In this document: in pieces, positions 11,466 to 64,000 of the stretch
Position numbering within the stretch: position 1 is the first letter of the stretch
Layout of the letters: each line of letters opens with the position of its first letter
NCBI GenBank assembly: GCA_963971425.1
Contig: OZ020520.1
Location: forward strand, 27,621,535 to 27,685,534
Source: Bryoerythrophyllum caledonicum
Lineage: Eukaryota; Streptophyta; Bryopsida; Pottiales; Pottiaceae
DNA: 64,000 bases
Direction of reading: 5' to 3'
The notes under the pieces: generated by a model
What the model was told of the DNA's origin: nothing
Database searches by the model: none
The model's input: the letters and a program-made list of their open reading frames with translations, nothing else
Translations under genes and position numbers: made by a program

Positions 11466-12416
11466 TTAATTGTTGGAGTTTGCGGTGTTGGGGGTGTAGT
11501 TACCGACCGGTGGGTGGGAGTAGTCGGGGATGGGTTCTAGGCATCTTAGTGATTCATTGATCATATCGTGAGAGAGGAAGGGGAATTGATTTTTTAATAT
11601 ATGGGGGGTTATTATTGTGTGGTATTTGTGTATATTGTCATAGAGTTTGTTTTGAATTAGGTCTGGTGGATTTATTATGTTTTGGTTATTCGTTTGAAAT
11701 TGAGTAAGTTTGTGCTCAGTGGCAATCTGTCGTTTGGGAGGATTTTCTAGAGTTGCGAGTGTGTGCAGTAAGTTAGTTGCCCAAGTAGTGTTTGAGTCTC
11801 CTTGGGTGTTTGGAGAGACTTTGTAGTTGGCCAATTCTATAGATGGGCTAATTGTAACTATGATGGCGTATATAATATGTATTGAGGGGAAGTGTTGTAT
11901 AGTTTGGATGTAATGATGTAAGTGTGGATATCTATTGTTGTATTCATTATGAAGTGTGTGGGAGGTCTTTATAAGAGGGGTGTGTAATTTTGCGAGATGT
12001 TGGTATTCCGGTTGGAACTTGATAGTACTTGGAATAAAGTACATTTCTTCTCTTTTCTTGTGTGCTAAGGGGTGATTGTGTAGTATATTAGGCATTGGCC
12101 CTGGATTTTGTTCAATGTCTCCACATAATAATAGAAGGGGAAATTCATCAATATTTTGCGGTGGTGGATATTTATATTTTATTTTTTGATGTGGGGGTGC
12201 CATTGTATTTATAATTGTTGGTGAAATGTGTGTTTGTAGTTGTATTCCTATTATATTGAGGTTTTGTAGATATACTCTATTAGTTGAGTTTTGGTATGTT
12301 ATGATATCATCACCGGTTAGTAGGATCAATTTATAATATTTGTTTTTGCCAGTTGGCAAGGAAAGGAGTGTAAAATGCAGATTGTGAGTGGTGTGGATGA
12401 TTTTTATGTAGTGCAT
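11466..12416 (-). pseudogene. LINE ORF2 segment carrying a 2A-like motif
   Basis: An open frame of 316 codons. Residues 94-107 read PLLLLCGDIEQNPG followed by P and then Met, matching the 2A consensus D-x-E-x-N-P-G-P preceded by a Leu-rich stretch. The residues before it (1-93) have no recognised fold. The residues after it (108-316) are His-, Thr- and Ile-rich and lead into the endonuclease region. In known 2A proteins the ribosome skips the Gly-Pro bond, releasing the upstream peptide. Here that would split about 107 residues, plus anything upstream, from the enzyme part of ORF2. Confidence 0.7.
12096..12137 (-). other. 2A ribosome-skipping-like motif (LLLLCGDIEQNPGP)
   Basis: The codons for GDIEQNPGP occupy 12122-12096, followed by ATG at 12095-12093. 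All core residues (D, E, N, P, G, P) are present, as is the usual run of leucines and CGD upstream. 2A-like motifs at the N-terminal side of ORF2 are established in trypanosome L1Tc/ingi LINEs and in sea-urchin LINEs. Activity in this copy is inferred from the motif only. Confidence 0.8.
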
Positions 12417-12465
12417 GATAATAGTATTATAATTATTTTGAGTAGTGAGGATTGGTGGTTGGTTC

Positions 12466-13335
12466 TTAGTGTATAGGTGTGTGTTGTTTTGGGGTATTTC
12501 CTAAGATGGGTGTAGTGGGATATTGCGTACTTGGTTTGCAGGTGATTATGTGAGGGTTAAAAATAAGAGATGTATTCTTTAGTGTTGGTGTTTTCTGGGA
12601 AGAGCTATGTTTAATAGTTGGTGTGATTAAGATGTAGTACGTACTCTTAGTGGCAATTTTTGTGTGGGTGGATTTGTGGAAGTCAACGTAATGCTTTAGT
12701 GGAGTGAGAGTGACGGCATAGGGTAGAGGATAGGGCAATTCTTTTATGAGTCTAGTTTTTGTTTTGTAGTATATCCAGGTGATAAAATGACTAGTGGAGG
12801 AGGATTAATACGTGATGGTTTCTAGAGGTAGGGAGATAGGAATGAACTGTGGGGTAATCGTAATGTTTGTGGTATGTATTTTTTAGTTTGAGGTTGAGTT
12901 TGTGTTGTTGATGGTTTGGTGTGGATTTTAATATATTAGTACAATATCTGGATTTTGGTTTGGTCTGATTATTCTTGGTTTTTGATGTTTTATTTATGTC
13001 GTTTTGATTTTTTCTTACTTTATTATTTTTGTTATGTAAGGTGTATAGATATAATAGCGGATTTACCTTGTGTTTATTATTGTTAGTCATATGTTTGGAA
13101 TTTAGATATGATTTATCATTTATGATTATACTATGGTTGGTGATTTTTAGAAAATTATGTAGGTGTACTTTTACATACATGGGTGTGTTTTTTTTGTTGG
13201 TTTTTGGGGTAGTATATAAGTATACTATTGAATATAATATTATGGCATTACTATTATATTTTTGGATTTTGATATTTGCTGGTAAATGAGTATATAAATA
13301 TACTTTTAGGTATTTTATCGTGTTGTGGGTTGAAG
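12466..13335 (-). pseudogene. N-terminal part of LINE ORF2, Asn/Thr/His-rich
   Basis: Two minus-strand frames (13180-12791 and 12738-12466) give Asn-, Thr-, Lys- and His-rich peptides with no recognised domain. They lie between the end of ORF1 and the 2A-bearing frame, and share the A+C-rich strand bias of the rest of ORF2. They are probably the divergent amino-terminal region of ORF2. Confidence 0.35.
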
Positions 13336-31130: not shown

Positions 31131-32670
31131 CAAATGTACTCACGAGGTTGTAAGTGTATAATCCAAGGTTTCTCTCGTACAATTCTTGTGAGCCGCAAAA
31201 ACGGCTCATGGTGATGAATGGACCTCACATCGTGTGCATTAAGGCTATTAAACGGTAAAAAGGGGTTATCCCATTGGTTAGTTCATGGCTTTCGATTGAA
31301 TTGGCCGAATTAGCCTTCCCGTGCACTAAATCTTTAATTGGGAACCATATTATGGTAACCAAAAATTTTAATGGTTAACCAAAAAATAAATAAATAAATA
31401 GACAAAAAGGAAAAAAATAAAGAAAAAAACCGGGCAAAACAAAAAAAAAACATCGGGAAATGAAGAAAAGAGAAAGAATGAGGACAAGAGGGAAGAAAGG
31501 AGAAGGAGATTTTAAGAGCCCTAAAAGAAAGGTGGAAAAAATAGTTAAAGAGGCCAAAAGGCTTGGGCAAAACCCTCACCATCACTTGGCAAAGTAGCCA
31601 CAACCCAAATCAAGGGAAATTCAAGTTATGCTAATTAGGTAGTTTTTGCATTTATGAAATTCTATTAAGAACTCACTTATTGGAGATCATGCACACCCAT
31701 GTGGCATGGAGTCAATGTTTAGATTTAGATATTCCTTGGTAAGTGGGACACCCACTCTTGATAAAAACAAGGAAGGCACGGAATTAGTAGATATAGGTTT
31801 AATAGGCTTTCTAAGAATGAAGCCATTAATGGAAGAAGGCCAAAGGCGGCAGGCAACTTCTTTAGGAACTCAAGGAGAACAATTGGCTACGGGGTTACCC
31901 CTGGAGAGGTGGCATTCAGTTAGGAGTGTGGGGAGTGTAGACAGAGTGCGAGGAGAGAAACACGGGACTGAGAGCCGGAAGCCCCGGCCACTAGAAGTGC
32001 AAGTAACACGAAGAAGAGGATCACGAAGAAGAGGACCAGCATACAAAGAAGAGGATCACGAAGAAGAGGACCAGCATACGAAAAAGAGGATCGCGAAGAA
32101 GAAGACCAGCATTCAAAGAAGAGGATCCCGAACAAGAGGACCAGAAGACGAAGAAGAAGATCACGAAGAAAAGGACCAGCACACGAAGAAGAGGATCGCG
32201 GAGAAGAGGACCAGCATACGAAGAAGAGGATCACGAAGAAGAGGACCAGCATACGAAAAAGAGGATCGCGAAGAAGAAGACCAGCATACGAAGAACAGGA
32301 TCCCGAAGAAGAGGACCAGCAGACGAAAAAGATGATCACGAAGAAGAGGACCAGCACACGGAGGAGAGGATCGCGAAGAAGAGGACCAACAAACGAAGAA
32401 CAGGACCAGCATACGATGAAGAGGATCACGAACAAGAGGACCACCATACGAAGAAGAGGATGGCGGAGAAGAGGACCAGCATACGAAGAAGAGGATCACT
32501 AAGAAGAGGACCAGCACACGAAGAAGAGGATCACGAAGAAGAGGACCAGCATATGAAGAAGAGGATCACGAACAAGACGACCAGCATACGAAAAAAAGGA
32601 TCGCGAAGAAGAAGACCAGCATACAAAGAAGAGGATCCCGAAGAAGAGGACCAGCAGACGAAAAAGAGGA

Positions 32671-35600
32671 TCACGAAGAAAAGGACCAGCACACGAAGAA
32701 GAGGATCGCGGAGAAGAGGACTAGCATACGAAAAAGAGGATCACGAAGAAGAGGACCAGCACACGAAGGAGAGGATCGCGAAGAAGAGGACCAGCAAACG
32801 AAGAACAGGACCAGCATACGATAAAGAGGATCACGAAGAAGAGGACCAGCATACGAAGAAGAGGATCGCGGAGAAGAGGACCAACATACGAAAAAGAGGA
32901 TCACTAAGAAGAGGACCAGCAGACGAAGAAGAGGATCACGAAGAAGAGGACCAGCATAGGAAGAAGAGGATCACGAAGAAGAGGACCAGCATACGAAAAA
33001 GAGGATCGCGAAGAAGAAGACCAGCATACAAAGAAGAGGATCCCGAAGAAGAGGACCAGCAGACGAAAAAGAAGATCACGAAGAAAAGGACCAGCACACG
33101 AAGAAGAGGATCGCGGAGAAGAGGACTAGCATACGAAAAAGAGGATCACGAAGAAGAGGATCAGCACACGAAGGAGAGGATCGCGGAGAAGACGACCAGC
33201 ATACGAAGAAGAGGACCACGAAGAAGAGGACCGGCAGACGAAGAAGAGGATCACAAATAAGGGACCAACACACGAAGAAGAGGATCGCGGAGAAGGAGAC
33301 CAGCATACGAACAAGAGGATCACGAAGAACAGGACCAGCACACTAAGAAGAGGATCGCGAAGAAGACAACCAGCATACGAAGAAGAAGATCACGAAAAAG
33401 AAAACCAGCATACGAAGAAGAGGATCGCAAAGAAGAAGACTAGCATACGAGGAAGAGGATCACGAAGAAGAGGACCAACACACAAAGAAGACGATCACGA
33501 AGAAGAGGACCAGTACACGAAGAAGAGGACTAGCATACGATGAAGAGGATCACGAAGAAGAGGACCAGCACACGAAGAAGAGGATCACGAAGAAGAGGAC
33601 CAGCACACAAAGAAGAGGATCGCGGAGAAGAGGACTAGCATACGAAAAAGAGGATCACGAAGAAGAGGATCAGCACACGAAGGAGAGGATCGCGGAGAAG
33701 ACGACCAGCATACGAAGAAGAGGATCACGAAGAAGAGGACCGGCAGACGAAGAAGAGGATCAAAAATAAGGGACCAACACACGAAGAAGAGGATCGCGGA
33801 GAAGGAGACCAGCATACGAACAAGAGGATCACGAAGAACAGGACCAGCACACGAAGAAGAGGATCACGAAGAAGAGGACCAGCACACAAAGAAGAGGATC
33901 ACGAAGAAGAGGACTAGCACACGAGGAAGAGGATCGCGGAGAAGAGGACCAGCATACGAAGAAGAGGATCACGAAGAAACGGACCAACACACGAAGAAGA
34001 GGATCGCGAAGAACCGGACCAGCATACGAAGAAGAGGATCACGAAGAAGAGGACCAGCAGACGAAGACGAGGATCACGAAGAAAAGGACCAGCACACGAA
34101 GAATAGGATCGTGGGAAGAGGATCAACATACGAAAAAGAGGATCACGAAGAAGACGACCAACACACGAAGAAGAGGATCGCGGAGAATACGACCAGCATA
34201 CGAAGAAGAGGATCACGAAGAAGAGGACCGGCAGACGAAGAAGAGGATCACAAATAAGGGACCAACACACGAAGAAGAGGATCGCGGAGAAGGAGACCAG
34301 CATACGAACAAGAGGATCACGAAGAACAGGACCAGCACACGAAGAAGAGGATCGCGGAGAAGAGGACTAGCATACGAAAAAGAGGATCACGAAGAAGAGG
34401 ACCAACACACGAAGGAGAGGATCGCGGAGAAGACGACCAGCATACGAAGAAGAGGATCACGAAGAAGAGGACCCGCAGACGAAGAAGAGGATCACAAAGA
34501 AGAGGACCAACACACGAAGAAGAGGATCGCGAAGAAGAGGACTAGCATACGAAAAAGAGGATCACGAAGAAGAGGACCAGCACACGAAGGAGAGGATCGC
34601 GAAGAAGAGGACCAGCAAACGAAGAACAGGACCAACATACGATAAAGAGGATCACGAAGAAGAGGACCAGCATACGAAGAAGAGGATCGCGGAGAAGAGG
34701 ACCAACATACGAAAAAGAGGATCACTAAGAAGAGGACCAGCAGACGAAGAAGAGGATCACGAAGAAGAGGACCAGCATAGGAAGAAGAGGATCACGAAGA
34801 AGAGGACCAGCATACGAAAAAGAGGATCGCGAAGAAGAAGACCAGCATACAAAGAAGAGGATCCCGAAGAAGAGGACCAGCAGACGAAAAAGAGGATCAC
34901 GAAGAAAAGGACCAGCACACGAAGAAGAGGATCGCGGAGAAGAGGACTAGCATACGAAAAAGAGGATCACGAAGAAGAGGATCAGCACACGAAGGAGAGG
35001 ATCGCGGAGAAGACGACCAGCATACGAAGAAGAGGACCACGAAGAAGAGGACCGGCAGACGAAGAAGAGGATCACAAATAAGGGACCAACACACGAAGAA
35101 GAGGATCGCGGAGAAGGAGACCAGCATACGAACAAGAAGATCACGAAGAACAGGACCAGCACACTAAGAAGAGGATCGCGAAGAAGACAACCAGCATACG
35201 AAGAAGAAGATCACGAAAAAGAAAACCAGCATACGAAGAAGAGGATCGCAAAGAAGAAGACTAGCATACGAGGAAGAGGATCACGAAGAAGAGGACCAAC
35301 ACACAAAGAAGACGATCACGAAGAAGAGGACCAGTACACGAAGAAGAGGACTAGCATACGATGAAGAGGATCACGAAGAAGAGGACCAGCACACGAAGAA
35401 GAGGATCACGAAGAAGAGGACCAGCACACAAAGAAGAGGATCGCGGAGAAGAGGACTAGCATACGAAAAAGAGGATCACGAAGAAGAGGATCAGCACACG
35501 AAGGAGAGGATCGCGGAGAAGACGACCAGCATACGAAGAAGAGGATCACGAAGAAGAGGACCGGCAGACGAAGAAGAGGATCAAAAATAAGGGACCAACA

Positions 35601-36070
35601 CACGAAGAAGAGGATCGCGGAGAAGGAGACCAGCATACGAACAAGAGGATCACGAAGAACAGGACCAGCACACGAAGAAGAGGATCACGAAGAAGAGGAC
35701 CAGCACACAAAGAAGAGGATCACGAAGAAGAGGACTAGCACACGAGGAAGAGGATCGCGGAGAAGAGGACCAGCATACGAAGAAGAGGATCACGAAGAAA
35801 CGGACCAACACACGAAGAAGAGGATCGCGAAGAACCGGACCAGCATACGAAGAAGAGGATCACGAAGAAGAGGACCAGCAGACGAAGACGAGGATCACGA
35901 AGAAAAGGACCAGCACACGAAGAATAGGATCGTGGGAAGAGGATCAACATACGAAAAAGAGGATCACGAAGAAGACGACCAACACACGAAGAAGAGGATC
36001 GCGGAGAATACGACCAGCATACGAAGAAGAGGATCACGAAGAAGAGGACCGGCAGACGAAGAAGAGGATC
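32671..36070 (+). repeat. Higher-order duplication in the satellite, 1821-bp shift
   Basis: 32671-34250 and 34492-36070 are near-identical, including shared rare variants (GGACCGGCAGACG, AATAAGGGACCAACACACG, GAATAGGATCGTGGG). Frames at 33076/34897, 33126/34947, 33585/35406 and 33914/35735 correspond with a constant offset of 1821 bp, about 52 units. The copies separate after GGATCACAAATAAGG versus GGATCACAAAGAAGA. Confidence 0.85.
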
Positions 36071-38518
36071 ACAAAGAAGAGGACCAACACACGAAGAAGA
36101 GGATCGCGGAGAAGGGGACCAGCATACGAACAAGAGGATCGCGAAGAAGACGACCAGCACACGAAGAAGAGGATCGCGAAGAAGACAACCAACATCCGAA
36201 GAAAAAGATCACGAAGAAGAAAACCAGCATACGAAGAAGAGGATCGCAAAGAAGAAGACCAGCATACGAGGAAGAGGATCACGAAGAAGAGGACCAACAC
36301 ACGAAGAAGAGGACCAACACACGAAGAAGAGGACCAGCATACGATGACGAGGATCACGAAGGAGAGGACCAGCACACGAGGGAGAGGATCACGAAGAAGA
36401 GGACCAGCACACGAAGAAGGGGATCACGAAGAAGAGGACCAGCACACGAGGAAGAGGATCGCGGAGAAGAGGACCAGCATACGAACAAGAGGATCACGAA
36501 GAAAAGGACCAGCACACGAAGAAGAGGATCGCGGAGAAGAGAACTAGCATACGAAAAAGAGGATCACGAAGAAGAGGACCAGCACACGAAGGAGAGGATC
36601 GCGGAAAAGAGGACCAGCATACGAAGAAGAGGATCACGAAGAAGAGGACCGGCAGACGAAGAATAGGATCACAAAGGAGAGGACCAACACACGAAGAAGA
36701 GGATCGCGGAGAAGGAGACCAGCATACGAACAAGAGGATCACGAACAACAGGACCAGCACACGAAGAAGAGGAACGCGAAGAAGACAACCAGCATACGAA
36801 GAAGAAGATCACGAAAAAGAAAACCAGCATACGAAGAAGAGGATCGCAAAGAAGAAGACCAGCATACGAGGAAGAGGATCACGAAGAAGAGGACCAACAC
36901 ACGAAGAAGAGGATCACGAAGAAGAGGATCAGCACACGAAGAAGAGGACTAGCATACGATGAAGATGATCACGAAGAAGAGGATCAGCACACGAAGAAGA
37001 GGATCACGAAGAAGAGGACCAGCATATGAAGAAGAGGATCACGAAGAAGAAGACCAGCATACGAAGAAGAGGATCGCGAAGAAGAGGACCTGCACACGAA
37101 GAAGAGGACCAACATACGAAGAAGAGGATCACTAAGAAGAGGACCAGCATACGAAGAAGAGGATCACGAAGAAGACGACCAGCATACGAAAAAGAGGATC
37201 GCGAAGAAGAAGACCAGCATACAAAGAAGAGGATCCCGAAGAAGAGGACCAGCAGACGAAAATGAGGATCACGAAGAAAAGGACCAGCACACGAAGAAGA
37301 GGATCGCGGAGAAGAGGACTAGCATACGAAAAAGAGGATCACGAAGAAGAGGACCAGCACACGAAGCAGAGGATCGCGGAGAAGAGGACCAGCATACGAA
37401 GAAGAGGATCACGAAGAAGAGGACCGGCAGACGAAGAAGAGGATCACAAAGGAGAGACCAACACACGAAGAAGAGGATCGCGGAGAAGGAGACCAGCATA
37501 CGAACAAGAGGATCACGAACAACAGGACCAGCACACGAAGAAGAGGATCGCGAAGAAGACAACCAGCATACGAAGAAGAAGATCACGAAAAAGAAAACCA
37601 GCATACGAAGAAGAGGATCGCAAAGAAGAAGACCAGCATACGAGGAAGAGGATCACGAAGAAGAGGACCAAAACACGAAGAAGAGGATCACGAAGAAGAG
37701 GACCAGCACACGAAGAAGAGGACTAGCATACGATGAAGAGGATCACGAAGAAGAGGATCAGCACACGAAGAAGAGGATCACGAAGAAGATGACCAGCATA
37801 CGAAAAAGAGGATCGCGAAGAAGAAGACCAGCATACAAAGAAGAGGATCCCGAAGAAGAGGACCAGCAGACGAAAAAGAGGATCACGAAGAAAAGGACCA
37901 GCACACGAAGAAGAGGATCGCGGAGAAGAGAACTAGCATACGAAAAAGAGGATCACGAAGAAGAGGACCAGCACACGAAGGAGAGGATCGCGGAAAAGAG
38001 GACCAGCATACGAAGAAGAGGATCACGAAGAAGAGGACCGGCAGACGAAGAAAAGGATCACAAATAAGGGACCAACACACGAAGAAGAGGATCGCGGAGA
38101 AGGAGACCAGCATACGAACAAGAGGATCACGAAGAACAGGACCAGCACACTAAGAAGAGGATCGCGAAGAAGACAACCAGCATACGAAGAAGAAGATCAC
38201 CAAAAAGAAAACCAGCATACGAAGAAGAGGATCGCAAAGAAGAAGACCAGCATACGAGGAAGAGGATCACGGAGAAGAGGACCAACACACGAAGAAGACG
38301 ATCACGAAGGAGAGGACCAGTACACGAAGAAGAGGACTAGCATACGATGAAGAGGATCACGAAGAAGAGGACCAGCACACGAAGAAGAGGATCACGAAGA
38401 AGAGGACCAGCACACAAAGAAGAGGATCGCGGAGAAGAGGACTAGCATACGAAAAAGAGGATCACGAAGAAGAGGATCAGCACACGAAGGAGAGGATCGC
38501 GGAGAAGAGGACCAGCAT

Positions 38519-41160
38519 ATGAAGAAGAGGATCACGAAGAAAAGGACCAGCACACGAAGAAGAGGATCGCGAAGAAGAGGACCAGCATACGAAGAAGAGG
38601 ATCACAAAGAAGAGAACCAGCAGACAAAGAAGAGGACTAGCATACGAAGTAGAGGATCACGAAGAAGAGGACGAGTACACGAAGAAGAGGATCGTAGACA
38701 AGAGGACCAGCATACGAAGAAGAGGATCACGAAGAAGAGGACCAGCACACGAAGAAGAGGACCAACACACGATGAAGAGGACCAGCATACGAAGAAGAGG
38801 ATCACGAAGAAGAGGACCAGCACTTGAAGAAGAGGATTGCGGAGAAGAGGACCAGCATACGAAGAAGAGGATCACGAAGAAGAGGACCAGCACACAAAGA
38901 AGAGGATCGCGAAGAAGAGGATCAGCATATGAAGAAGAGGATGACGAAGAAGAGGACCAGCATACGAAGAAGAGCATCGCGAAGAAGAGGACTAGCACAC
39001 GAAGCAGAGGATCGCGAAGAAGAGGACCAGCATACGAAGAAGAGGATCACGAAGAAGAAGACCAGCATACGAAGAAGAGGATCGCGAAGAAGAGGACCAG
39101 CACACGAAGAAGAGGACCAGCATACGAAGAAGAGGATCACGAAGAAGACGACTAGCACACAAAGAAGAGGACCAGCATACGAAGAAGAGGATCACGAAGA
39201 AGAGGACCTGCACACGAAGAAGAGGATCATGAAGAAGAGGACCAATACACGAAGAAGAGGATCGCGGAGAAGAGGACCTGCATATGACGAAGAGGATCAC
39301 GAAGAATAGGACCCGCACACAAAGAAGAGGATCGCGAAGAAGAGGACCAGCATACGAAGAAGAGGATCGCGAAGAAGAGGACCAGTTCACGAAGAAGAGG
39401 ACCAGCACACGAAGAAGAGGATCACGAAGAAGACGACTAGCACACGAAGAAGAGGACCAACATACGAAGAAGAGGATCACGAAGAAGAGGACCAACACAC
39501 GAAGAAGAGGATCACGAAGAAGAGGACCAACACACGAAGAAGAGGATCGCGGAGAAGAGGACTAGCATATGAAGAAGAGGATCGCGAAGAAGAGGACCAG
39601 CATACGAAGAAGAGGATCGCGAAGAAGAGGACCAGCATACGAAGAAGAGGATCACAAAGAAGAGAACCAGCAGATGAAGAAGAGGACTAGCATACGAAGT
39701 AGAGGATCACGAAGAAGAGGACGAGTACACGAAGAAGAGGATCGTAGAGAAGAGGACCAGCATACGAAGAAGAGGATCACGAAGAAGAGGACGAGCACAC
39801 GAAGAAGAGGACCAGCACACGATGAAGAGGACCAGCATACGAAGAAGAGGATCATGAAGAAGAGGACCAGCACTTGAAGAAGAGGATCGCAAAGAAGAGG
39901 ACCAGCACACGAAGAAGAGGACTACAAAGAAGATGACCAGCAGACGAAGAAGAGGATCACGAAGAAGAGGACCAGCATACGAAGAAGAGGATTGCGGAGA
40001 AGAGGACCAGCATACAAAGAAGAGGATCACGAAGAAGAGGACCAGCACACAAAGAAGAGGATCGCGAAGAAGAGGACCAGCATATGAAGAAGAGGATGAC
40101 GAAGAAGAGGACCAGGATTCGAAGAAGAGCATCGCGAAGAAGAGGACCAGCACACGAAGCAGAGGATCGCGAAGAAGAGGACCAGCATACAAAGATGAGG
40201 ATCTCGAAGAAGAGGACCAGCATACGAAGAAGAGGATCGCGAAGAAGACGACCAGCACACGAAGAAGAGGACCAGCATACGAAGAAGAGGATCACGAAGA
40301 AGACGACTAGCACACGAAGAAGAGGACCAGCATACGAAGAAGAGGATCACGAAGAAGAGGACCAGCACACGAAGAAGAGAATCACGAAGAAGAGGACCAG
40401 CATACGAAGAAAAGGATCTCGAAGAAGAGGACCAGCACACGAAGCAGAGGATCGCGAAGAAGAGGACCAGCATACGAAGAAGAGGATCACGAAGAAGAAG
40501 ACCAGCATACGAAGAAGAGGATCGCGAAGAAGAGGACCAGCACACGAAGAAGAGGACCAGCATACGAAGAAGAGGATCACGAAGAAGACGACTAGCACAC
40601 ATAGAAGAGGACCAGCATACGAAGAAGAGGATCACGAAGAAGAGGACCTGCACACGAAGAAGAGGATCATGAAGAAGAGGACCAATACACGAAGAAGAGG
40701 ATCGCGGAGAAGAGGACCAGCATATGACGAAGAGGATCACGAAGAATAGGACCAGCACACAAAGAAGAGGATCGCGAAGAAGAGGACCAGCATACGAAGA
40801 AGAGGATCGCGAAGAAGAGGACCAGTTCACGAAGAAGAGGACCAGCACACGAAGAAGAGGATCACGAAGAAGACGACTAGCACACGAAGAAGAGGACCAG
40901 CATACGAAGAAGAGGATCACGAAGAAGAGGACCAGCACACGAAGAAGAGGATCACGAAGAAGAGGACCAACACACGAAGAAGAGGATCGCGGAGAAGAGG
41001 ACCAGCATATGAAGAAGAGGATCACGAAGAAAAGGACCATCACACGAAGAAGAGGATCGCGAAGAAGAGGACCAGCATACGAAGAAGAGGATCACAAAGA
41101 AGAGGACCAGCAGACGAAGGAGAGGATCACGAAGAAGAGGACTTGCACACGATGAAGAGG
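38519..41160 (+). repeat. Further higher-order duplications in the satellite (1050- and 1440-bp shifts)
   Basis: 38519-38827 matches 39569-39877 (offset 1050 bp, exactly 30 units). About 38990-39565 matches 40430-41000 (offset 1440 bp, e.g. 39284/40724). Diagnostic variants such as GACGAGTACACG and CAGTTCACGAAG travel with the blocks. This end of the array is more regular than the left end. Confidence 0.75.
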
Positions 41161-41639
41161 ATCGCGGAGAAGAGGACCAGCATACGAAGAAGAGGATCAC
41201 GAAGAATAGGACCAGCACACGAAGAAGAGGATTGAAGGTGCACTGCTGGTCGCTGGCTGCGAGGTCCAGGGTCGAGTCAAATGAGTAATTGAAGGCTGCC
41301 ATCATGTTAAGCATAAAAAACTAATAAGAATACAAAAAACAATCGTAAAAAACGGAGTCATAATCACGATAATAATGAAGAATTAAACTTTTAACATATG
41401 AAGAGGAGCCTGTCTGCTGGTTGCTGCTGTCAGGGTCGCACTTGGGCCTGGAACTGGTGGTTAAGGTGCTAGTCAAGTTCAGAAGGCGAAATTGAACCTG
41501 ATGGAGCTTTAAAACATTGGAAACGGAGCTTTGAGGCGGAATTTATGCTCGTCTAAAGGTTGGACTCAACCTAAGGCTGAATTCAGCCACCACATCACCA
41601 ATTATTATCGAACCCTCTTATGTGACCACGCCTTGGGCA

Positions 41640-51119: not shown

Positions 51120-53540
51120 GTGCAATAAAATTTCTTCTTTTCCTCATAAAACTTACAAATTTTTATATTTTTCACTTTTTGTTTTGTTCTACTAAAAGAT
51201 GTGCTCTACACCCTTTTACTGACCGATTGGATAAGCATTCTAAAAGATATTTAGCTCACAAGTAATTGTAACGTGAACTGGCTATTCTTAAGCTTCCACC
51301 TGTTTTTTTGAAGATGCTATACCCCTCTTTTACCTCTAGAACTTTTCCTAGAATTTTTTGATGATGCTATACCACTCAATTTTTTTGAAGATGCTATACC
51401 CCTCTTTTACCTCTAGAAATTGGTGTATAGGGAATGGACATGATGCTTAAGACAATGATAAAAGATTTGGAACTTTTGTACTTTAAACATTTCATAAAAA
51501 GCGAAGTCAAAGTCTACGGACCCGGGAAGAAAACTCAACCTTTGTTTTCACGTTAAACACTATAATCTATCAATTGGTGCGGTGGATTGCAACTAAAAGA
51601 GTATGGCGTGTTCATATAGAAGTCTTTTCTAAGATTTTATGGCTGAAAATCCAAACCTAACTTTAAAATGTGATTCATTGCCTCTTTTTTTACAGTGATG
51701 GCTTTGGACTAGTTTTTGAGCTAAAGGCTCCCTGGTCCTTTATGGGTTAAAACACCATCCATGCCATTTTGTGGAATATCAAACATGGATGCAGCCTTCT
51801 GCAAGATTTGTAGGAAGAGAATGTGGTTATGGAATGGACTGTTATATGATAAAGGGTTGGATATCAAGCACCTCCAACAACAATGACAAAAGTTTTCATA
51901 GATTTTGGGTTTTTTCATGGTGATAACTAATAAAATTTTACTTTGAAGCGTCCAATAAACATAAAATTGACAACTTTGAAAGTTTCAATTTACATGAACA
52001 GGAAAACTAAAACGTGTTGTACATAAAATCCACGAGATAATCAGACCTTTTCACATGTGGAATTTCTTATTTTTGATTCGTGTAAAATGCGATGAATATT
52101 TTCGTGTAATTTTCAATTTTATTTTGAGCTTTCATGTTTATTACAAGAAAATTTATCGATTTTTTAATTTTGTTCCAGTATTTTCCTTGCGTCAAAAACA
52201 AAATACAAAAATTAGAAATACCACATGTGAAACTCCATCAGAAAAATACGAGGCCCTTGATTTCATATGAAAAATATTTAATATTCGTCTAAAAAGAGCC
52301 ACATACAACTTGCATCCAATGATAAAAAAAACTTAATACAACATGTACGTAAGGATGTTGTGTACAAAAAAAAAAAAAAAAAAACTCTATATAGTATCTT
52401 GTATGTAGAGACAATTTGAGAAATATATAGAAATCCTATACACGTATAATATTTGCATAAGAATGTAACCTATGCTTGTATTTTAATGTATTATGGGCAC
52501 ATTACCAACTTTGTACTACTAATAACATCATTTATTTGAAGACTAGGGTTGGTACCCATCGTCCCGACGGGGAAAGCGGAGGGTGGTGTGTTAAATTTAC
52601 GTTTGTATGTTTTGTATTTTAAAACCTATAAGCTCAAATTGAATCTAAATGGAAAATTACTTCACATCAAGAGGTCAAAATCAAGAGTCATTAGGTTACT
52701 ACCTAATATCAAGAGTCAAGAAGAGTGCATCACTGTGCCTCACCCTTCACATCAAGAGGTCAAAATCAAGAAAGACAGATCACGTGATCGGGAGCGGCGG
52801 ACAGACAGATTGACGCCTTTTATATAGGTAGATGCCATATACATTTGGTTCCTATCGACCCCACGGATTGATAAATCATGGTGTTTACAATCCAAACAAC
52901 AATTCATTATCTTCCCTGCGTTGATCCATATTCATAAGACTTTGACAACACTTCGTATCATATTTATGTAATATGCAAGGTCTAAATCTTTTACCCCTGT
53001 CTTAAACTCTCAAGGAACATGGCCAATTCAGCTAAAAAATTAGTCCAAAACCGTCATATTGAAAAGGAGGCATAGCAATCACATTTTTCAAGTGATCTTT
53101 AGATTTTCAACCGTAAGATTCTAAAGTAGACTTCTATATGAACACACCATGCTCTTATGGTTGCAATCCACCGCATGGATTGATAGATTATAGTGTGTAA
53201 AGTAAAAACAATGGTTCATTTTCTTCCATCGTTGACTGGTACCCTAGACTTTGACTTTGCTTTATATAAACTTTTTACAATCCAAAAGTTTGTAATTTTA
53301 TAATATTCTGTGAAGCATGATGTTAATTCTATATACAACAATTTGTAGAGGTAAAAAATGGGAGTAGCATATTCAAATAAATTTGTGCAAGGAGTGGAGG
53401 TTCAAACAAGGCCAATTCACATTTCATTTTTTTGTGCACCAAATATCTTTTAGAATGTTTATCCAAACAATCAATGAGAAGGTTTATAACACATCTTGTA
53501 CAAGAGAAAACAAGATGTGACAAATTTAATAAGGTGTACA
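51120..53540. mobile_element. Long inverted-repeat element, about 2.4 kb, arms about 0.55 kb
   Basis: The left arm (51120-51740) and right arm (53000-53540) are diverged inverted copies. Matched pairs include GATTGGATAAGCATTCTAAA with 53452-53476 inverted, GGTGCGGTGGATTGCAACTA with 53155-53180 inverted, GAAGTCAAAGTC with GACTTTGACTT, and GGACTAGTTTTTGAGC with 53030-53050 inverted. Both arms translate to DKHSKRYL on opposite strands. The left arm also contains two direct copies of GAAGATGCTATACCCCTC. The core (51740-53000) has no recognised gene. Probably a non-autonomous long-TIR transposon; the target duplication was not resolved. Confidence 0.65.
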
Positions 53541-55289: not shown

Positions 55290-56245
55290 ACACGGATTCT
55301 TCTTCTTCTTCTTCTTCTTCTTCTTCTTCTTCTTCTTCTTCTTCTTTGTCGTCTTCTTCTTCTTCTTCTTCTTCTTCTTCTTCTTCTTTGTCGTCTTCTT
55401 CTTCTTCTTCTTCTTTGTCGTCTTCTTCTTCTTTGTCGTCTTCTTCTTCTTTGTCGTCTTCTTCTTCTTTGTCGTCTTCTTCTTCTTTGTCGTCTTCTTC
55501 TTCTTTGTCGTCTTCTTCTTCTTTGTCGTCTTCTTCTTCTTTGTCGTCTTCTTCTTCTTTGTCGTCTTCTTCTTCTTTGTCGTCTTCTTCTTCTTTGTCG
55601 TCTTCTTCTTCTTCTTCTTTGTCGTCTTCTTCTTCTTCTTCTTTGTCGTCTTCTTCTTCTTCTTCTTCTTTGTCGTCTTCTTCTTCTTTGTCGTCTTCTT
55701 CTTCTTCTTCTTCTTTGTCGTCTTCTTCTTCTTCTTTGTCGTCTTCTTTGTCGTCTTCTTCTTCTTCTTCGTCTTCTTTGTCGTCTTCTTCTTCTTCTTC
55801 TTCTTCTTTGTCGTCTTCTTCTTCTTCTTCTTCTTCTTTGTCGTCTTCTTCTTCTTCTTTGTCGTCTTCTTCTTCTTCTTTGTCGTCTTCTTCTTCTTCT
55901 TTGTCGTCTTCTTCTTCTTCTTTGTCGTCTTCTTCTTCTTCTTCTTCTTCTTCTTCTTCTTCTTCTTCTTCTTCTTCTTCTTCTTCTTCTTCTTCTTCTT
56001 CTTCTTCTTCTTCTTCTTCTTCTTCTTCTTCTTCTTCTTCTTCTTCTTCTTCTTCTTCTTCTTCTTCTTCTTCTTCTTCTTCTTCTTCTTCTTCTTCTTC
56101 TTCTTCTTCTTCTTCTTCTTCTTCTTCTTCTTCTTCTTCTTCTTCTTTGTCGTCTTCTTCTTCTTCTTCTTCTTTGTCGTCTTCGTCGTCTTCTTCTTCT
56201 TCTTTGTCGTCTTTGTCGTCTTCTTCGTCTTCTTTGTCTTCTTCT
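55290..56245. repeat. TTC array with TTTGTCGTC spacers and a ~72-unit pure TTC run
   Basis: The left half is an 18-bp higher-order repeat (TTCTTCTTCTTTGTCGTC) with varying numbers of TTC. From about 55929 to 56145 the sequence is uninterrupted TTC, roughly 72 units; the GTCGTC variant returns after it. The plus strand has no purine except G in GTC. Frames are poly-Ser, poly-Phe or poly-Leu and are not genes. Confidence 0.95.
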
Positions 56246-56399
56246 TTAGTATAAGTGAAATGAACTTTGCAATGACCAGGGGTTTAGAAAGTAGTCATTT
56301 GCTAAAGAAAGCTATTTCATTTTTTAAATCAGAAAATGATCTTTGGATATTAAATCCAAGTGGTGGATAGAATCATCATGCCTTTTTCTAGGACGAAGC

Positions 56400-56482
56400 T
56401 ATCTTGCGTGCGGTGGCATGTGAGCGGTGAGCGTTGACACGTGAGCAGTGAGCAATGAGCAGCAATCGGTGAGCAGTGAGCA
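56400..56482 (+). repeat. GTGAGC-type short tandem repeat
   Basis: GTGAGCGGTGAGCG, GTGAGCAGTGAGCAATGAGC and GGTGAGCAGTGAGC, a 7-bp unit with interruptions. Confidence 0.7.
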
Positions 56483-57048
56483 AAATTTTTGAGTAAAGTT
56501 TAACTTTTTTTCAAAAAGTAGGGTTTTTTTTATGTTGCAAAATGCGGTATAGGGTAAAAATAGTGCATAGAAAGGCACCTATGACCGTGGATGCGAATGC
56601 AGAGCAAAGGAAACAAGGTTTGTAATCAAACACCTATTACCGTGTAAATTAAGAATGCTGGTGAAAATTAGTACTAAGCACGGTGTGAGAGGAACCTAAA
56701 CTACCTGGATCATGGTGTGCATACCAATATTCAAGAGGGTTACAGTTGGATGAAGTGGTGAAAAAAAATCATCCACGTCCCAGCATGTGGAGATGTTGCT
56801 AGTATGATAAGTCTTGGGCCAAAGCTCCAAAAAAAAAAAAATACCAAAAACGAAAACTGTACAAAGTATGCAATATATGATAGTAAGGTTGAAGACAATA
56901 TGAAATAAAGACAAATTGACTAAAAACGATGCAGAGTACGAAATGTTGACTAAAGTGGTCTTTTCATATCATGATGGTGGCCCTGTAGTCTCACCATCCT
57001 TTTGTACTGATAGAAATACGTACAATGTCCACCTAGTCCAATGCTTCA

Positions 57049-60000
57049 CTAAACACTAGCTTGCTTCATGAGCAATAGCTGCAAAACACGTCTTATCTCA
57101 TTGAAGCTAAAACTAGGGGCGTGCATAAATGCATCCAATTCCGGATCCAACCCACATAGTATGGTAAATATAAAGTACAGATGTTTACAGTTCGAATACT
57201 GAGGGCGCTTGCCAAGGGACTTGTTGCACATTTCCTTGAAGAACGGACAGCTACAACTTGGAAACTGGCTGATTGATATCATGTAGACAGATACTTGTGA
57301 AATGTTTTTTGATTGGAAGGAGAGAACGCATCCAAACGCTGGGGCAGGAATCATACAAACCTGCAAAACTTTCCCAACAATTGAAAGAGCGGATGCGCAC
57401 GTATTCTGATGTTTCGTTGTCGGGGCCTTCGGATTGCGACGAATGTTCTTGCCAAATCTGAGCTTTGGATGTTCGTCAGGGTTTGCCGGGGTGGAAAATG
57501 AAGACAAATCAAGTGTTGAACCATCCTCAGTAAACAGTTTCCGAGGGGAAAGCATCACTCGCTCTGGAAGTCGGAAACCGGCCTCCTCTAAGGATAGAAT
57601 CTCTGCCTTTGTTAGAGAGGTACCAGCTTTTACGGGCCACACATCAGGTACTGCAGGCTTAGAAACCACCCACTCCCTTCTACTTCCCAATACACAACGA
57701 TGGATGTCATCAGAACAATAAAAAAACTGCATCTTGACCAACGTTTTCTTCTTATAATTTTTCATCATTCCTGTGTATGTTGGTGCTGCAGTACTTTTAT
57801 TGTCCTGGACAATGCGAGCGACACACTTCTTCCCAGTAAGAGACTGAAGAGCAAAACATTTCTTCGCTGATGTTTTCGGAAGCCTTGAAATATGCCATTC
57901 CCTTTCGTCACAAGATGTTTCCATGACTGCTTTAACATGAGGAACTCGAAAAGATGCTCTTGCCATCTTCGGAGGAACACTTACATCCTTCTGGGAACCG
58001 CCTGGAAAGTCAATATCCTCATCCGCAACATGGAGAGTATTCTTCTCTGACGCACGGGTCCTCACCCTAGGGCGGGATACACTAATTCTGTCCGGACGAT
58101 GGGAGTCAAACTCTGAACCTGGAGGAATATCTGCCTTTCGTTTCAGAGATAAGAACTCCTCTTCGCCTTCCAAATGCGGGGGCCTCGTGCAGAACTCAGC
58201 AGCTCCTGGCAAATCGGAGAGCGCTTCAAGAAATGCCTTAGAGTTTCCGGAGCGATGAGCTGTGCGTTGAGCGACTCGAAGGCGAAGTTCTTCTTTCCCA
58301 GGACCCATTCCTGGTCGCTCACCTTTCAAGTATTGATAACATGACACGACTTGCAAGAAAGCGCGAACCATGTCATCAACAGTGGCCACATACAAATCAT
58401 TTCCACGTTTCCCAGACTGTTGCAACCACTTGTTGTGCACAGTTTCAGCTAAATTGCAAGAAGGCATTTCTGCTAATTCGGAATCGGACAACGCCTGAAA
58501 AAAGAGGAAGGTTCAAATAGGATAATGATTTTAAAAGATTCACAGAAATAAAACGATGTTTGATGACTGTGCCACGAACGGCTGAATCATAACCAAATAT
58601 AAAAGCGACAAGGAGGACCCACTATCTAGGTCTGCCGGCAACGGCAGACTTATTATGGATCACAACTACAAAATGAGGTGTGTTCTAAGGTACGCCAGCC
58701 AGAAAACCAAACAAAATACGGTCTAGAAAAGTTACGTACCGATACCATAAAACCTCCCCACTGACGGTACCGAAAGTGCCAGAACGCAAGCCACAAGTCC
58801 AGCCGCACCACACCCTCATTTGTGGATGCCCCAGATGATAGCCACCAAGCTTTGATCGCCAAATACTTTGCCTCGGCCTCCTCCATGGACTTTGCGTTCT
58901 TGTACTGTTTGCAAAGTTGACGATGTTGTTCTTGGAGGTCTGCTCTTATATCCGCCTTTGTATGTTTCTCCAGTGATTGTGTCCAATGGAAAAGGCAGGT
59001 TCTTTCGCGATTTTCCATTGGGATAGCGGAATCGCCGGAGCCATAAACAGTCCGCACCGCGTTCCAGTTTGCCTGCGCGCTGTCTGCCATGAATCCCTTG
59101 AAGTTTACAGTGGTAATATCGTGACGAAAAGCAACTGCATTCAAATTTTTCCAAAAAACTGTTTGCGCTGCCACATCTTCAGACTGCATATCGCAAACCG
59201 CAATGGTCAGCACTCGACAGTACGTAGAATCGTAAACATGGCAACCCATAGTTGTCCAACCCTTCACTCGCTTCACATGATCAAACATGATCCAACATTC
59301 TTCTAAGTCTCCTCCTCGCTGCATTCGTTTCACCAAATCAACCCCGCTAGCAGAACCAATCTCGGACATTTTGAATACGAACACCTTGTCAGAGTCCGCC
59401 CCCTGACCTGGAAACCTATTTTCTTGAACGAAGGCCCATTTGCTCAAACCTCTGAGTTTCGTGATGCTGTCCATGACACCAAACCTACGCAGGTACCTGA
59501 ATGAAGAGACGTCATTTCGAATGCTCGCCGATGACATCTGTTTGAACTTTTCTAACACCGGAACTAGTTCCTCCATATGAAGGGGCTTCTGCTGAACCCC
59601 GTCCGGGCCCAGTAACTGTTCTCCAAGGAATTCCTTGCTGGCCTCAAGAATGATGGCTGAGTTAGTAGCTGAGGGTGTCCTCTCCACTTGTTCCCCGATA
59701 AGTTGCTTAAGCTTTGTGGAGGAAACTCTACAGTTCCCTAACTTAACGGGGTGCAAGTGGTTACCAAGATGCACACATCCCCTAGTCATACTCTCCGGTC
59801 CGATAACATAGTAAATTTTGGCTGCGCAAGTACTATGACAAGACGGAGGAACTCTACATAGTCTGCAAACAACAGTCGAACTTGCTGGAGGGTCCTCACT
59901 CACTCGAAACACTGAGGACGAAGTTCCCTCCCACTCGGTTTCATTTAAAAGGGAAGCCCTATGCTCTCTCTTTAGGAAGTCACAGTTTGGATTATCGCAC

Positions 60001-60854
60001 CGAAGATGTCCCAGACACGAAGACATCCTAAACGTAAGGTTTGAGTCATTTGCAACATGAGTTGTCACTGTCCTTGTCCACGCATGTCCATCGTGTTTTT
60101 TATCCATACCATGCAACAATCCGGCCTGCGTTGATTGAGATCCCCTTTCTAGAACTGGAAGTTCGTATATAACGTCTCCATCGAAAGAGACAGGTAAATA
60201 GTCAACCTTCTCAATTCTAATAGAATTAAAGTCGACTTTGTTTAAGAGTGATTTGGATCGGGACCTAGTAGTCACACTTCGCAAGCAGTCCACAATGCTA
60301 ATAGGGGCTGAGGGGGTAAGGGGAGGCCCAGAATTACTAGGAGCAGCAGCATTGGACAGGGCAGGTGCAGTATTACAAAGGAATGATGAACCGTCCACAG
60401 GCGTCCTGGAAGCCGGAACTTTTGGAGAATCACAATCAGAGTCATCACTAAGCAAGTGCACTACGCTCTTAGGAGGCTCTAGTTTAACATTCTGAAGCAA
60501 CGGTGTAACTTGGGTTGCGGTCGTCGATTGCTTTGGGGTCAAGGAACTACAAGGGACTCTCTCAAGACTGTCCTTCACATCGTACACTCGATACCTTCCA
60601 GACTTAAGCGACCATACACTTCCGTGATCAAGGGAAATAGTTGCCTGAGCGACAGTGTGCGTGAGCTCTCCAGTATCTGGATCAAACTCTTCCTTGTCAA
60701 TATGAAGTGACCCCTCCTGAATTCGAAATCGCTGACTTAATCTAACTCCACTAATCATGGCCAATCCGTCATCTGCAACAGCAAAACATATAGGGACTCC
60801 TGTGGAGTCTCCATGAACAACTACAGTATCGGGGAACTGACCCAAAGAAACCAT
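57049..60854 (-). CDS. Mutator-like protein with zinc finger, DDE-like core and SWIM finger (two exons)
   Basis: Exon 1 is 60854-58740 (705 codons), exon 2 is 58494-57049 (482 codons with stop); the product is about 1186 residues. The intron 58739-58495 has donor TCG|GTACGT and acceptor CCTTCCTCTTTTTTCAG|GCG, and phase is kept. Residues 280-368 form a Cys/His cluster (CDNPNCDF, CRLC, VHLGNHLHP), like the WRKY/GCM1-type fingers of Mutator transposases. Residues 515-635 resemble the MULE core: MFDHVKR, GCHVYD, GFMADSAQA (D591) and CLFHWTQSLEKH. Residues 1119-1143 form a SWIM finger, CSC...CKH. It has no internal stops and is GC-richer than its surroundings. Function: a transposase or, like FAR1/FHY3, a domesticated DNA-binding derivative. 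No TIRs were found around it, which favours domestication, but catalytic Asp/Glu assignments are uncertain. A minus-strand TATA-like ATATATG lies near 60960. Confidence 0.75.
58495..58739 (-). other. Intron of the Mutator-like gene carrying a hairpin motif
   Basis: The 245-bp intron holds, at 58630-58649, GTCTGCCGGCAACGGCAGAC. The stem GTCTGCC pairs with GGCAGAC around a GGCAAC-type centre. This is the same core (TGCCGGCAACGGCA) as the 62.4-64 kb hairpin array, but the outer stem bases are changed on both sides so that pairing is kept. Confidence 0.75.
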
Positions 60855-61456
60855 TGCAGAGCATTAAGAAATCAATAAAGGGAGAGGGGAGGCAAAACTC
60901 AACAACATGCGCTAAGTTATCGTGATTTGAGAGGTTAACGTAAAGAACAAAGTTAGCACATATATAGATGAAATTTAATTTATCCGGGAAAGTAAAAATG
61001 AGGGCAATAAAGATCTCTTCACTTTATGAGAGAGAAAAGCAAGTTGACAGCACTATTTATTACTTGTCGTTAATGTGCAGGCATGGGCGGAAAAGTAAGT
61101 ATCAACTAAGACAGTATGTCCAATATTCTTAAGAATTAGGGTGGTTTAGATTTCGTTCAATCAAAATCATGATCAAGAAAGATATTCTGTTGGCAGCGAA
61201 TCTGCACAAAGATATATATATGGCGGCTTACTTTAAGGAATTTACCTGTTATCTGTTAGTAAATTGACGGCCTAGAACAGTTTGTCTGAGTCGATAAATT
61301 GATCATGCTTGGACCAGGGCTGGCCATTAAATATAGCAGCAGCCACAGAACTAAATGCCACTCCAGGGCAGGTAATAAGGAAGAGAAATTAAATGGAGCG
61401 TGCATATATACTGGAAACATAGAGGTCGGGATCAAACCGAGTGAATGTGGTGAAGA
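60855..61456. promoter_or_regulatory. Divergent intergenic region
   Basis: About 600 bp separate the start of the minus-strand Mutator-like gene from the plus-strand gene model. TATA-like sequences point both ways (minus near 60960, plus GCATATATACT near 61402). Shared regulation is possible but only inferred from layout. Confidence 0.35.
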
Positions 61457-62309
61457 ATGAAAAAAAGAAGAAAGTCACAACTCTACTTCAGTTCCATTAG
61501 AACTTCGAGAAGAACTAGAGAGATGAGGAGGAAGGTATCAAAACTGATTGAGGGGGATTGTGGAATGACTCAAAAAACACTGCAGTTTCAAGAGGATTGC
61601 GCTTTAGATGCAGAAGAGACTTTCGCTAGTAAGGAGTGTTTGATATCAATTCCTGAAAGCCGTCTATCTGCAGAGATTAAACATCTGGAAACCAGTGGAA
61701 TTCATTTGGATGGAATTGCAGCGCAGGACCTCGATTCAGGTATTTCTTAGAAGTCATTATCTAGTTCTTTGTTGGGTGAATCATTACTTCAATTATCATG
61801 GTCTATAGAGAATTAGTATCATTCGTGCCTAAAAGCAATGTCGATGGAGTGATAAGTTGTATTGTCAATTTCACTCTTTCTTGCACTCAATTAGCACCTA
61901 GGTTTAGGTTGGCTATGAAAGGCTGAGTGTACAGCGGATGGTATAGGTAGTGATCAGTTCCCCCCTCACGGAGGAATTTCGACATTGCTTCGCGAGGGTA
62001 TGCGCACTAAACCCACAGGCGGCCACTTCTAGGTTAACACACATCAATCGTATTTCTCGCTGGTCTTTGCGTCGAAGGTCCATCGAGCTGTGCGAGGGTA
62101 TTATGATCCTTGTTGTCTGCGTAGATTTCTCCGAGGTCAGGGTCAGATTGCGAGTTAGACTGATATTACAATGCAGAGAAGACAATCTACAAATCCGATT
62201 CTAAACAGTTGTGCGTGTCTGTGTGCAGGGCAAGACAAGTGCGAGGAAAGGGACATTGAGGACATGGCGATATCGATGAGCAACGCTACAACAGATTGCA
62301 GCGCGGAAG
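61457..62309 (+). CDS. Hypothetical spliced gene, first two visible exons
   Basis: The first exon, from ATG 61457 to 61739, ends CAG|GTATTT; the second, 62229-62309 (81 bp), follows TGTGTGCAG and ends GAAG|GTAAGT. Both junctions are phase 1 and the joined frame stays open (LDSG then QDKCEERDIEDMAISMSN). The first exon starts basic (MKKRRKSQ, SRRTREMRRK) and turns acidic with Cys residues. I do not recognise the protein. The gene must continue past the hairpin array, beyond the window, or end in an exon I cannot see. Upstream exons are also possible, since the ATG context is unremarkable. Confidence 0.45.
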
Positions 62310-62421
62310 GTAAGTCCAATACACATTGGTGAATATGAAAAGTACGTCTAGGTTAGGGTTTTTCAATCTCGAAAAATCTAAGCTGTAGGATCGTGATGGT
62401 GGTGTCACGGGCGTCCATGCC

Positions 62422-64000
62422 GCGCTGCCGTTGGCGGCAGTGCTACCCAAGATAGCCGGTGTCTGTGATGACACCGACCTCATCACCGCATATCTAAGTA
62501 CTGGCCTTCTTCGAAGCAATGCCGGCAACGGCAGTGCTCGTGAAGTGGATTGCTTTTTTTTAGAAATTGCTCTGTACGATGCATTGCCGGCAACGGCAAT
62601 GCAGTCGGAGTTGTTGGTCTTTTTTTAAACTTTGCTTTTTCGATGCACTGCCGCTGCCGGCAGTGCCATGGAAGTGCCCGTTGTCACAAATCTCATCGAC
62701 CACTACATGAGCACTGCCGGCTGCGGCAGTGCTCGTGATCTGATCTGCGATAATTTATCACTTGAACTGTTTAAAGCACTGCCGTTGCCGGCAGTGCTCA
62801 AGGAGTGGTCGGTATATTTTTTCATCTTTCTTTCTACGAAGCACTGCCGTTGCCGGCCGTGTCCATGAAGTTCCCGGTGTCACAATTTTAACCGAGCACT
62901 TTATGAGCAGTGCCGGCAATGGCAATGCTCTTGAAATGATTTTCTATTTTAAAAACTTGGTCTGTTGAATGCACAGCCGTTGCCGGCAAAGCTCATGAAG
63001 TGCCCTGTGTCACAAATTTCACCGAGCAGTTCATGAGCTTTGCCGGCAATGGCTGTGCTGACGGGATGATTTGCTGACAGAAAGAACTTGTTTTGTTTCA
63101 TGGAATGCGGTTGCCGGCAGTACTTGTTCAGGGGTCATTTTATTTTAATCTATCCTCCTTTGAAGCACTGCCGTTGCCTGCAGGGCTCATAAAGTGCCCG
63201 GTGTCACAAATTACACCGAGCAGTTCATGAGCTATGCCGGCAACGGTAGTGCTCAAGAAATGATTTGTTGTCTTTTTAAACTTGCTCTGTTTCAAGCATG
63301 CCGTTGCCGGCAGTACTATTACGGGGGTCATTTTATTTCAATCTTTCCTCCTTCGAAGCACTGCCGTTGCCGGCAGTGCTCATGAAGTGCCGGGTTTCAC
63401 AAATCACACCGAGCACATCAAGAGCACTGCCGGCAACGGCAGTGCTAACCAAATGATTTGATAATTTTTAAAACTTGCTTTGTTTCATGCATTGCCGTTG
63501 CCGGCAGTACTTGTACAGGGGTCATTATATTTTAATCTTTCCTCATTCGAAGCGCCGGCAACGGCAGAGCTCAAGAAATAATTTGTTTTTTTTTATACTT
63601 GCTCTAATGAGAGCAATGGCGTTGCCGGCAGTGCTCTTGGAGTGGTCAATATTCTCTTTACTTTCCTCTTTCGCAGCACTGCCTTCGCCGGCTCTGTGCA
63701 TGAAGTGACTGGTGTCAGAAATCTCACCTAGCACTACAATAGCACTGCCGGCAGCGGCAATGCTTGTGATCTGATTTGCTATTTATGATTACCTGCTTTG
63801 TTCAAAGCACTGCCGTTGCCGGCAGTGCTCGTGATATGGTTGACATTTTTTTAGATCAGGCTTCATTGGAGCACTGCCGGCAACGGCAGTGCTCGTGATA
63901 TGGTTGACATTTTTTAGATCAGACTTCATTGGAGCACTGCCGGCAACGGCAGTGCTCGTGAAGTGGTCAGTTCATTTTTTTTTCTTTCCATCACCGAAGC
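62422..64000. repeat. Array of 24 hairpins at about 65-bp spacing
   Basis: The unit core is a 9-bp stem GCACTGCCG/CGGCAGTGC around a TTGC or GCAA loop. Copies start at 62422, 62516, 62581, 62645, 62711, 62776, 62841, 62907, 62971, 63037, 63104, 63165, 63231, 63296, 63358, 63424, 63489, 63552, 63613, 63676, 63742, 63807, 63872 and 63933. Most steps are 61-67 bp. Core orientation alternates (TTG or CAA), with a three-unit period of about 193 bp visible from 63104. Linkers are themselves conserved (CATGAAGTGCCCGGTGTCAC, CACCGAGCAGTTCATGAGC, CAGGGGTCATT). The array begins 113 bp after the donor site of the upstream exon and runs off the window. Confidence 0.9.

Follow-up and report, generated by a model that had tools for sequence, protein, structure and literature searches.

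Target-site duplications of Mutator-like transposons range from 8 to 11 bp. Tm1, of the Mutator/Foldback family, makes a duplication of 9 bp according to the excerpted text of its report (PMC3169594). Repeats inside transposons have also been described in Drosophila, where the excerpts at hand portray Galileo as carrying extra sites bound by its transposase, as demonstrated with the THAP domain in two of four long repeats (PMC3688188), and Tetris TIR-220 of Drosophila virilis as carrying tandem repeats whose number varies between alleles (PMC4079207). As far as those excerpts go, the repeats of Galileo lie in long terminal inverted repeats, whereas the array described here is internal and its binding by a protein is something that we infer; Tetris has terminal-repeat units of about 220 bp that spread as satellites, whereas here the array sits in a probable intron of its element in 20 loci. 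Satellite DNAs with dyad symmetries, to judge by titles and opening lines of abstracts, resemble our array in combining higher-order tandem repeats with short palindromes, and differ from it in that ours travels on a mobile element and measures 1.8 kb in the copy studied. Judged by titles and the opening lines of abstracts among the matches listed, no description of such a layout was found in the literature. A young transposon with dozens of probably intronic palindromic sites, in one position throughout the loci compared, would offer a natural test of the role of internal repeat arrays in mobile elements.

The array lies at the end of the 64-kb stretch of DNA that was analysed, which we call the window:
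62422..64000, and onward to the equivalent of 64195, plus strand: palindrome array, in a probable intron of the transposon's second gene

A preliminary description of this DNA had reported near-perfect palindromes phased at about 65 bp in both orientations, and this held up. At 62422-63955 there are 24 near-palindromic 22-mers matching the consensus GCACTGCCGTTGCCGGCAGTGC or its reverse complement (0 to 5 mismatches, either strand), 13 plus and 11 minus, the first gap being 94 bp and the others 60-66 bp, with an average of 64.5 bp over the last 22 (sd 1.44). Followed beyond the window, the array comprises 27 cores at up to six mismatches. The part inside the window contains nine perfect hairpins with a 4-nt loop and a stem of at least 8 bp, where 200 first-order resamplings gave 0.025 on average, and 12 of the 24 window cores have at least eight stem pairs; the 9-bp stem that had been ascribed to every copy is fully Watson-Crick in only 9 of the 24, or in 10 with G-U pairs on the plus strand. 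The exact core had no match in viral_contigs or genome_contigs, its 16-base centre matched 37 viral stretches once apiece, plasmids yielded no match, and a spurious frame spanning the array, used as a protein probe, gave no matches.

Whether other loci carry the motif in arrays had been treated as decisive in the preliminary description, and in the organism's own 437-Mb assembly arrays stand at many loci. Nine near-full-length array matches at 97-100% were found, the window copy included, with at least 174 matching pieces once diverged ones are counted, and cores at no more than one mismatch number 203 in the genome against 0 in a reversed-letter control. In the 20 loci of up to 10 kb that were taken for comparison, similarity extends far past the array in either direction. 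Long aligned pieces of the other eight young loci are approximately 98.5-99.7% identical, and eleven diverged loci retain 83-92% identity across the 3 kb before the array. The boundaries of this similarity are as follows:
56391..64000, and on to the equivalent of 68776 outside the window, no strand assigned: transposon holding the array, 12,386 bp in total
56381..56390, plus strand: left 10-bp target-site duplication, CCTTTTTCTA, with its counterpart after the right terminus in locus L046
56391..56415, plus strand: left terminus, 20 of its 25 bases equal to the right terminus reversed, followed by short GTGAGCG-like repeats

The first 7.6 kb of the element are inside the window. Its right terminus, ending in AAGATAGCAATCCCC, is common to 14 of the 20 loci, in flanks that are unlike, and the other six end before that point. 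An identical 10-bp target-site duplication, own to each copy, was found in all eight young copies whose two ends could be seen; the ninth, C124, ends short of its right terminus and stands outside this count. Left flanks of the young copies are likewise unlike, except that those of C124 and C14 are identical over 120 bases, so that these two represent one insertion. Because there are two termini with an inverted repeat (20 of the first 25 bases shared) and duplications of each copy's own, the window copy is a 12,386-bp transposon; dispersed copies with target-site duplications and terminal inverted repeats together mark it as a DNA transposon. The array belongs to this element, of which we are nearly certain. 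An earlier suggestion of a transposon-end array was right as to the transposon and wrong as to the end, as in the window copy the ends lie approximately 6.0 kb and 4.6 kb away.

These ends also bear on the idea that the array is the arm of a foldback transposon, comparable to an inverted repeat at 1426-3250 (339-nt arms, 96%) that likewise holds phased palindromes, 19 in number. Both ends of the present element are visible, with short inverted repeats, 10-bp duplications and the array well inside, and the repeat at 1426-3250 is a separate family that has no sequence match to the array. The chance that the array is such an arm is negligible, and for the copies examined the reading is ruled out, the array being outside any long terminal inverted repeat.

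The 10-bp duplication falls within the Mutator-like range, and, besides duplications of about 9-10 bp, the element has in common with Mutator-like transposons the short repeats close to its ends. Together with the look of the first gene, the duplication length suggests that the element is in the Mutator-like superfamily, with no Pfam match. It differs from such transposons in having its array inside a probable intron of the second gene and not in terminal repeats, and in the first gene's Pfam results given below. The genes and the two solitary cores found among them are:
57049..60863, minus strand: first gene, which we take to be transposase-like, in two coding blocks
58629..58650, minus strand: solitary core in the first gene's probable intron, the intron placed by eye
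61523..61739, plus strand: putative exon 1 of the second gene
62229..62309, plus strand: putative exon 2, its frame open from exon 1
Equivalent of 64277 (L046:4856), plus strand: putative start of exon 3, placed by eye
L046:4856-8900: remainder of the second gene, with many exons
L046:7456: solitary core in one of the subsequent introns of the second gene

The residue pattern of the first gene looks to us right for a MULE-type transposase. In Pfam, 58653-60863 has no family and 57049-58512 only a sub-threshold one, and the MULE family is absent at E ≤ 0.1 from the first-gene ORF tested and from 22 relatives. The structure model for this gene is weak (mean pLDDT 61.8). At least 88 proteins among 7991 scored candidates are relatives, named at most hypothetical protein, and no relative was found in IMG/VR. 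For the second gene, residues such as DGNHRLQA and DVIVDAFASTG look to us like ParB-like and DNA-methyltransferase parts; six ORF pieces gave no Pfam family at E ≤ 0.1, and three of them no PHROG.

As had been proposed, the array begins after a putative 5' splice site, GTAAGT at 62310, which precedes the first core by 112 bp. The second-gene frame is open from exon 1 to exon 2 and, by eye, into exon 3, and the array lies between exons 2 and 3 in all 20 loci compared. Across 13 aligned loci, exon 2 matches at 60-80 of its 80 bases; for exon 3 the eleven diverged loci match at 66-81 of 90 bases. The intronic position is thus backed by splice signals and by in-frame exons on both sides, and less well by the acceptor, whose AG is absent in two of the 12 aligned loci (L056 and L057); on this footing the array is probably intronic in the second gene.

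The preliminary description had set the array apart from an ordinary minisatellite, a distinction that does not survive the finding of direct repeats, 193 and 196 bp in length, and of a core orientation that mostly tracks the class of the neighbouring linker. The features concerned are:
62971..63553, plus strand: higher-order block of 193 bp in three copies, from direct-repeat finding
62971..63058, plus strand: inverted repeat made of a plus core, linker A and a minus core, with 39-nt arms that are 90% complementary
63807..63828, plus strand: core 22, a plus core in the window copy but a minus core in each of the eight other young copies

Pairwise identities allowed 23 of the 24 linkers to be sorted into classes A, B, C and D, linker 1 being left out; this sorting was by judgement, class B is loose (0.35-0.79), and linker 3 is equally close to linker 6, of class C, and to its nearest B. 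Mean identity within classes is 0.79 for A, 0.64 for B, 0.68 for C and 0.95 for D, against 0.48 for shuffled linkers. The order, B B A B C A B A B C A B C A B C B C A B D D C, is that of a three-unit block with losses, and the direct repeats just mentioned were detected independently of it. A trimeric block of approximately 195 bp is therefore the higher-order unit of the array, which has the fixed multi-monomer block and the whole-block changes in number of a higher-order tandem repeat. Within the block, orientation mostly follows linker class: four recurring slots that take in 17 of the 24 cores keep a constant orientation (AB, six minus; BC, five plus; CA, four plus; BA, two plus), and the majority orientation fits 20 of 22 window cores by the preceding linker and 21 of 22 by the following one, in blocks that share descent. 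A strictly fixed orientation was rejected, as core 22 differs among copies. The reversed end of linker A resembles the starts of linkers A, B, C and D at 0.70, 0.50, 0.56 and 0.52, against a null of 0.27, and the reversed ends of linkers B, C and D mostly have no likeness to linker starts (0.22-0.35; D with itself, 0.41). The minus cores likely arose by a past inverted duplication.

Between the young copies, the exon-to-exon length is 2133 bp in three, 2071 bp in one, 2329-2330 bp in four and 2314 bp in one, the steps being 196 bp (one block), 62 bp (one monomer) and a 15-bp loss inside core 1. Even C124 and C14, at one insertion site, differ in array length by 196 bp. Whole-block differences of this kind, found even at one insertion, fit what unequal exchange gives, and the array would grow and shrink by whole blocks of approximately 195 bp through such exchange. 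An alternative is that cruciforms, by loop inversion and template switching, alone sustain the changes in the array, a view that we consider unlikely. The opposite orientation of core 22 in the window copy and the three non-consensus bases common to cores 9 and 10 are in its favour; the core 22 difference, however, also alters an arm base, in a region where unit number differs between copies, and exchange within a core therefore explains it equally well. The flip of core 22 could have come about by either exchange within a core or loop inversion.

It had also been claimed that several stem changes are paired, and that the reading would depend on such pairing being commoner than chance, which it is not. 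Among the 216 stem cells of the window there are 178 Watson-Crick pairs, including a single double change, along with 35 one-sided changes and three two-sided unpaired ones; that single compensated change compares with 1.08 expected when arms are re-dealt at random (P = 0.70), and the pairs with 177.6 (P = 0.50). The same holds for 147 distinct cores drawn from 458 array cores in the 20 loci (up to six mismatches, with a neighbour within 140 bp), which have nine compensated changes against 9.00 expected (P = 0.55) and 1041 pairs against 1037.4 (P = 0.29). The stems evolve without pairing, and there is no sign that they are preserved as RNA. A higher-order repeat with palindromes is easily mistaken for a covarying RNA, and the apparent pairing among the 147 cores is of this kind, at chance level.

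A structured or small RNA from the transcribed intron, which had been listed among possible roles, is accordingly unsupported, since compensatory stem changes, the mark of a structured RNA, are no more frequent than chance in the 24 window cores and in the 147 distinct cores, and we hold this origin to be very improbable. What speaks for it is folding: treated as DNA, 62640-63620 reaches -251.9 kcal/mol against a mean of -136.5 in 20 shuffles, with cores 9-10, 12-13 and 15-16 paired as plus core, linker A and minus core, cores 5-6, 7-18 and 8-17 also paired, and cores 4, 11 and partly 14 folded on themselves. Against it, the changes shared across the pairs of plus core, linker A and minus core are not significant (P = 0.085), and the array has no Rfam family at gathering score.

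We put at about even the chance that this probably intronic array of a young transposon of approximately 12.4 kb consists of palindromic protein-binding DNA sites that are turned over by unequal exchange. Each 22-bp core would be bound by a protein that the element or the host encodes, and the bound protein may help transposition or control the gene. Protein binding is the function that we favour, with a close rival in the possibility that the array is a neutral passenger, that is, a chance tandem repeat in the intron of the ancestral element whose cores were homogenised by conversion or exchange; this is a serious candidate with somewhat less than an even chance. At the left end of the array, where each unit has a single clear counterpart in the other loci, cores 1-3 differ in three related loci at only 3-5 of 66 sites against 43-50 of 225-226 other intron sites (P 0.0014-0.0042), exon 2 differing at 3 of 80 in the same loci. 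Such slower divergence counts against a passenger, as does an array at one place in 20 of 20 loci with flank identity down to 83%. Toward the right end, the nearest loci show core divergence only slightly below that of the intron (12/88 vs 44/250); in distant loci it is far below (18/88 vs 141/248), but there the aligner may have used the cores to pair units that are unlike. In the nine young copies, variation is greater in core columns than in the remaining intron columns (16/594 vs 17/1368, P = 0.033), so that no recent selection on the cores is seen, a result that suits a passenger, as do the shifts of array length by whole blocks and the likeness of window cores, which is 0.82-0.84 within slots and 0.83 over all pairs.

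The solitary cores divide in a similar way. That at 58629 is unremarkable, as a neutral origin would have it: divergence is equal or lower in 128 of the 211 windows of its intron, in a comparison of nine loci of which five are partial and one, L055, is badly aligned. In contrast, the core at L046:7456, which is not part of the array, is better kept than any other stretch of its intron, and this counts against neutrality. Over 10 of the 11 diverged loci (L057 left out), only 4 of 189 intron windows are as little diverged, all of them the core or its shifts by one or two bases; locus by locus, P < 0.05 is reached in only 4 of 10, and related loci are not independent. This core is recognisable in 18 of the 20 loci at up to six mismatches, with a more changed version in L058. 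Over longer times the short palindrome itself seems to have been retained, perhaps because a protein binds it. Against the binding-site reading, gene conversion could preserve the likeness of the cores without any function; the evidence for constraint is mixed, and selection on DNA sites and conversion among cores are both possible sources of it. More speculatively, and with only a small chance of being right, the second-gene protein may bind or mark the intronic array as a landing platform, governing silencing or movement of the element, with the number of sites tuned by gain and loss of whole blocks.

The window holds several other repeats and reading frames. The foldback-like inverted repeat at 1426-3250 belongs to a separate dispersed family that has at least 314 genome matches; its 19 cores, at 1664-3012, alternate in orientation except at the centre and are spaced 60-67 bp apart, interrupted by gaps of 78 and 219 bp (the mean being 65.2 bp if the largest is set aside), and 18 of the 19 show no covariation (0 compensated changes vs 0.62 expected). 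An older inverted-repeat structure occupies 51183-53510, with arms of 117-142 nt that are 73-81% complementary. At 11466-12500, on the minus strand, an ORF containing GDIEQNPGP, which we take to be a 2A-type peptide, stands before retrotransposon-like ORFs, in which 5435-6367 gave a sub-threshold RNase H match. A tandem repeat of approximately 9.2 kb at 32022-41232 has a purine-rich unit of 35 bp and is open in several frames. Long TTC arrays are present at 864-1381 and 55297-56246, the second of which stops approximately 150 bp before the transposon.
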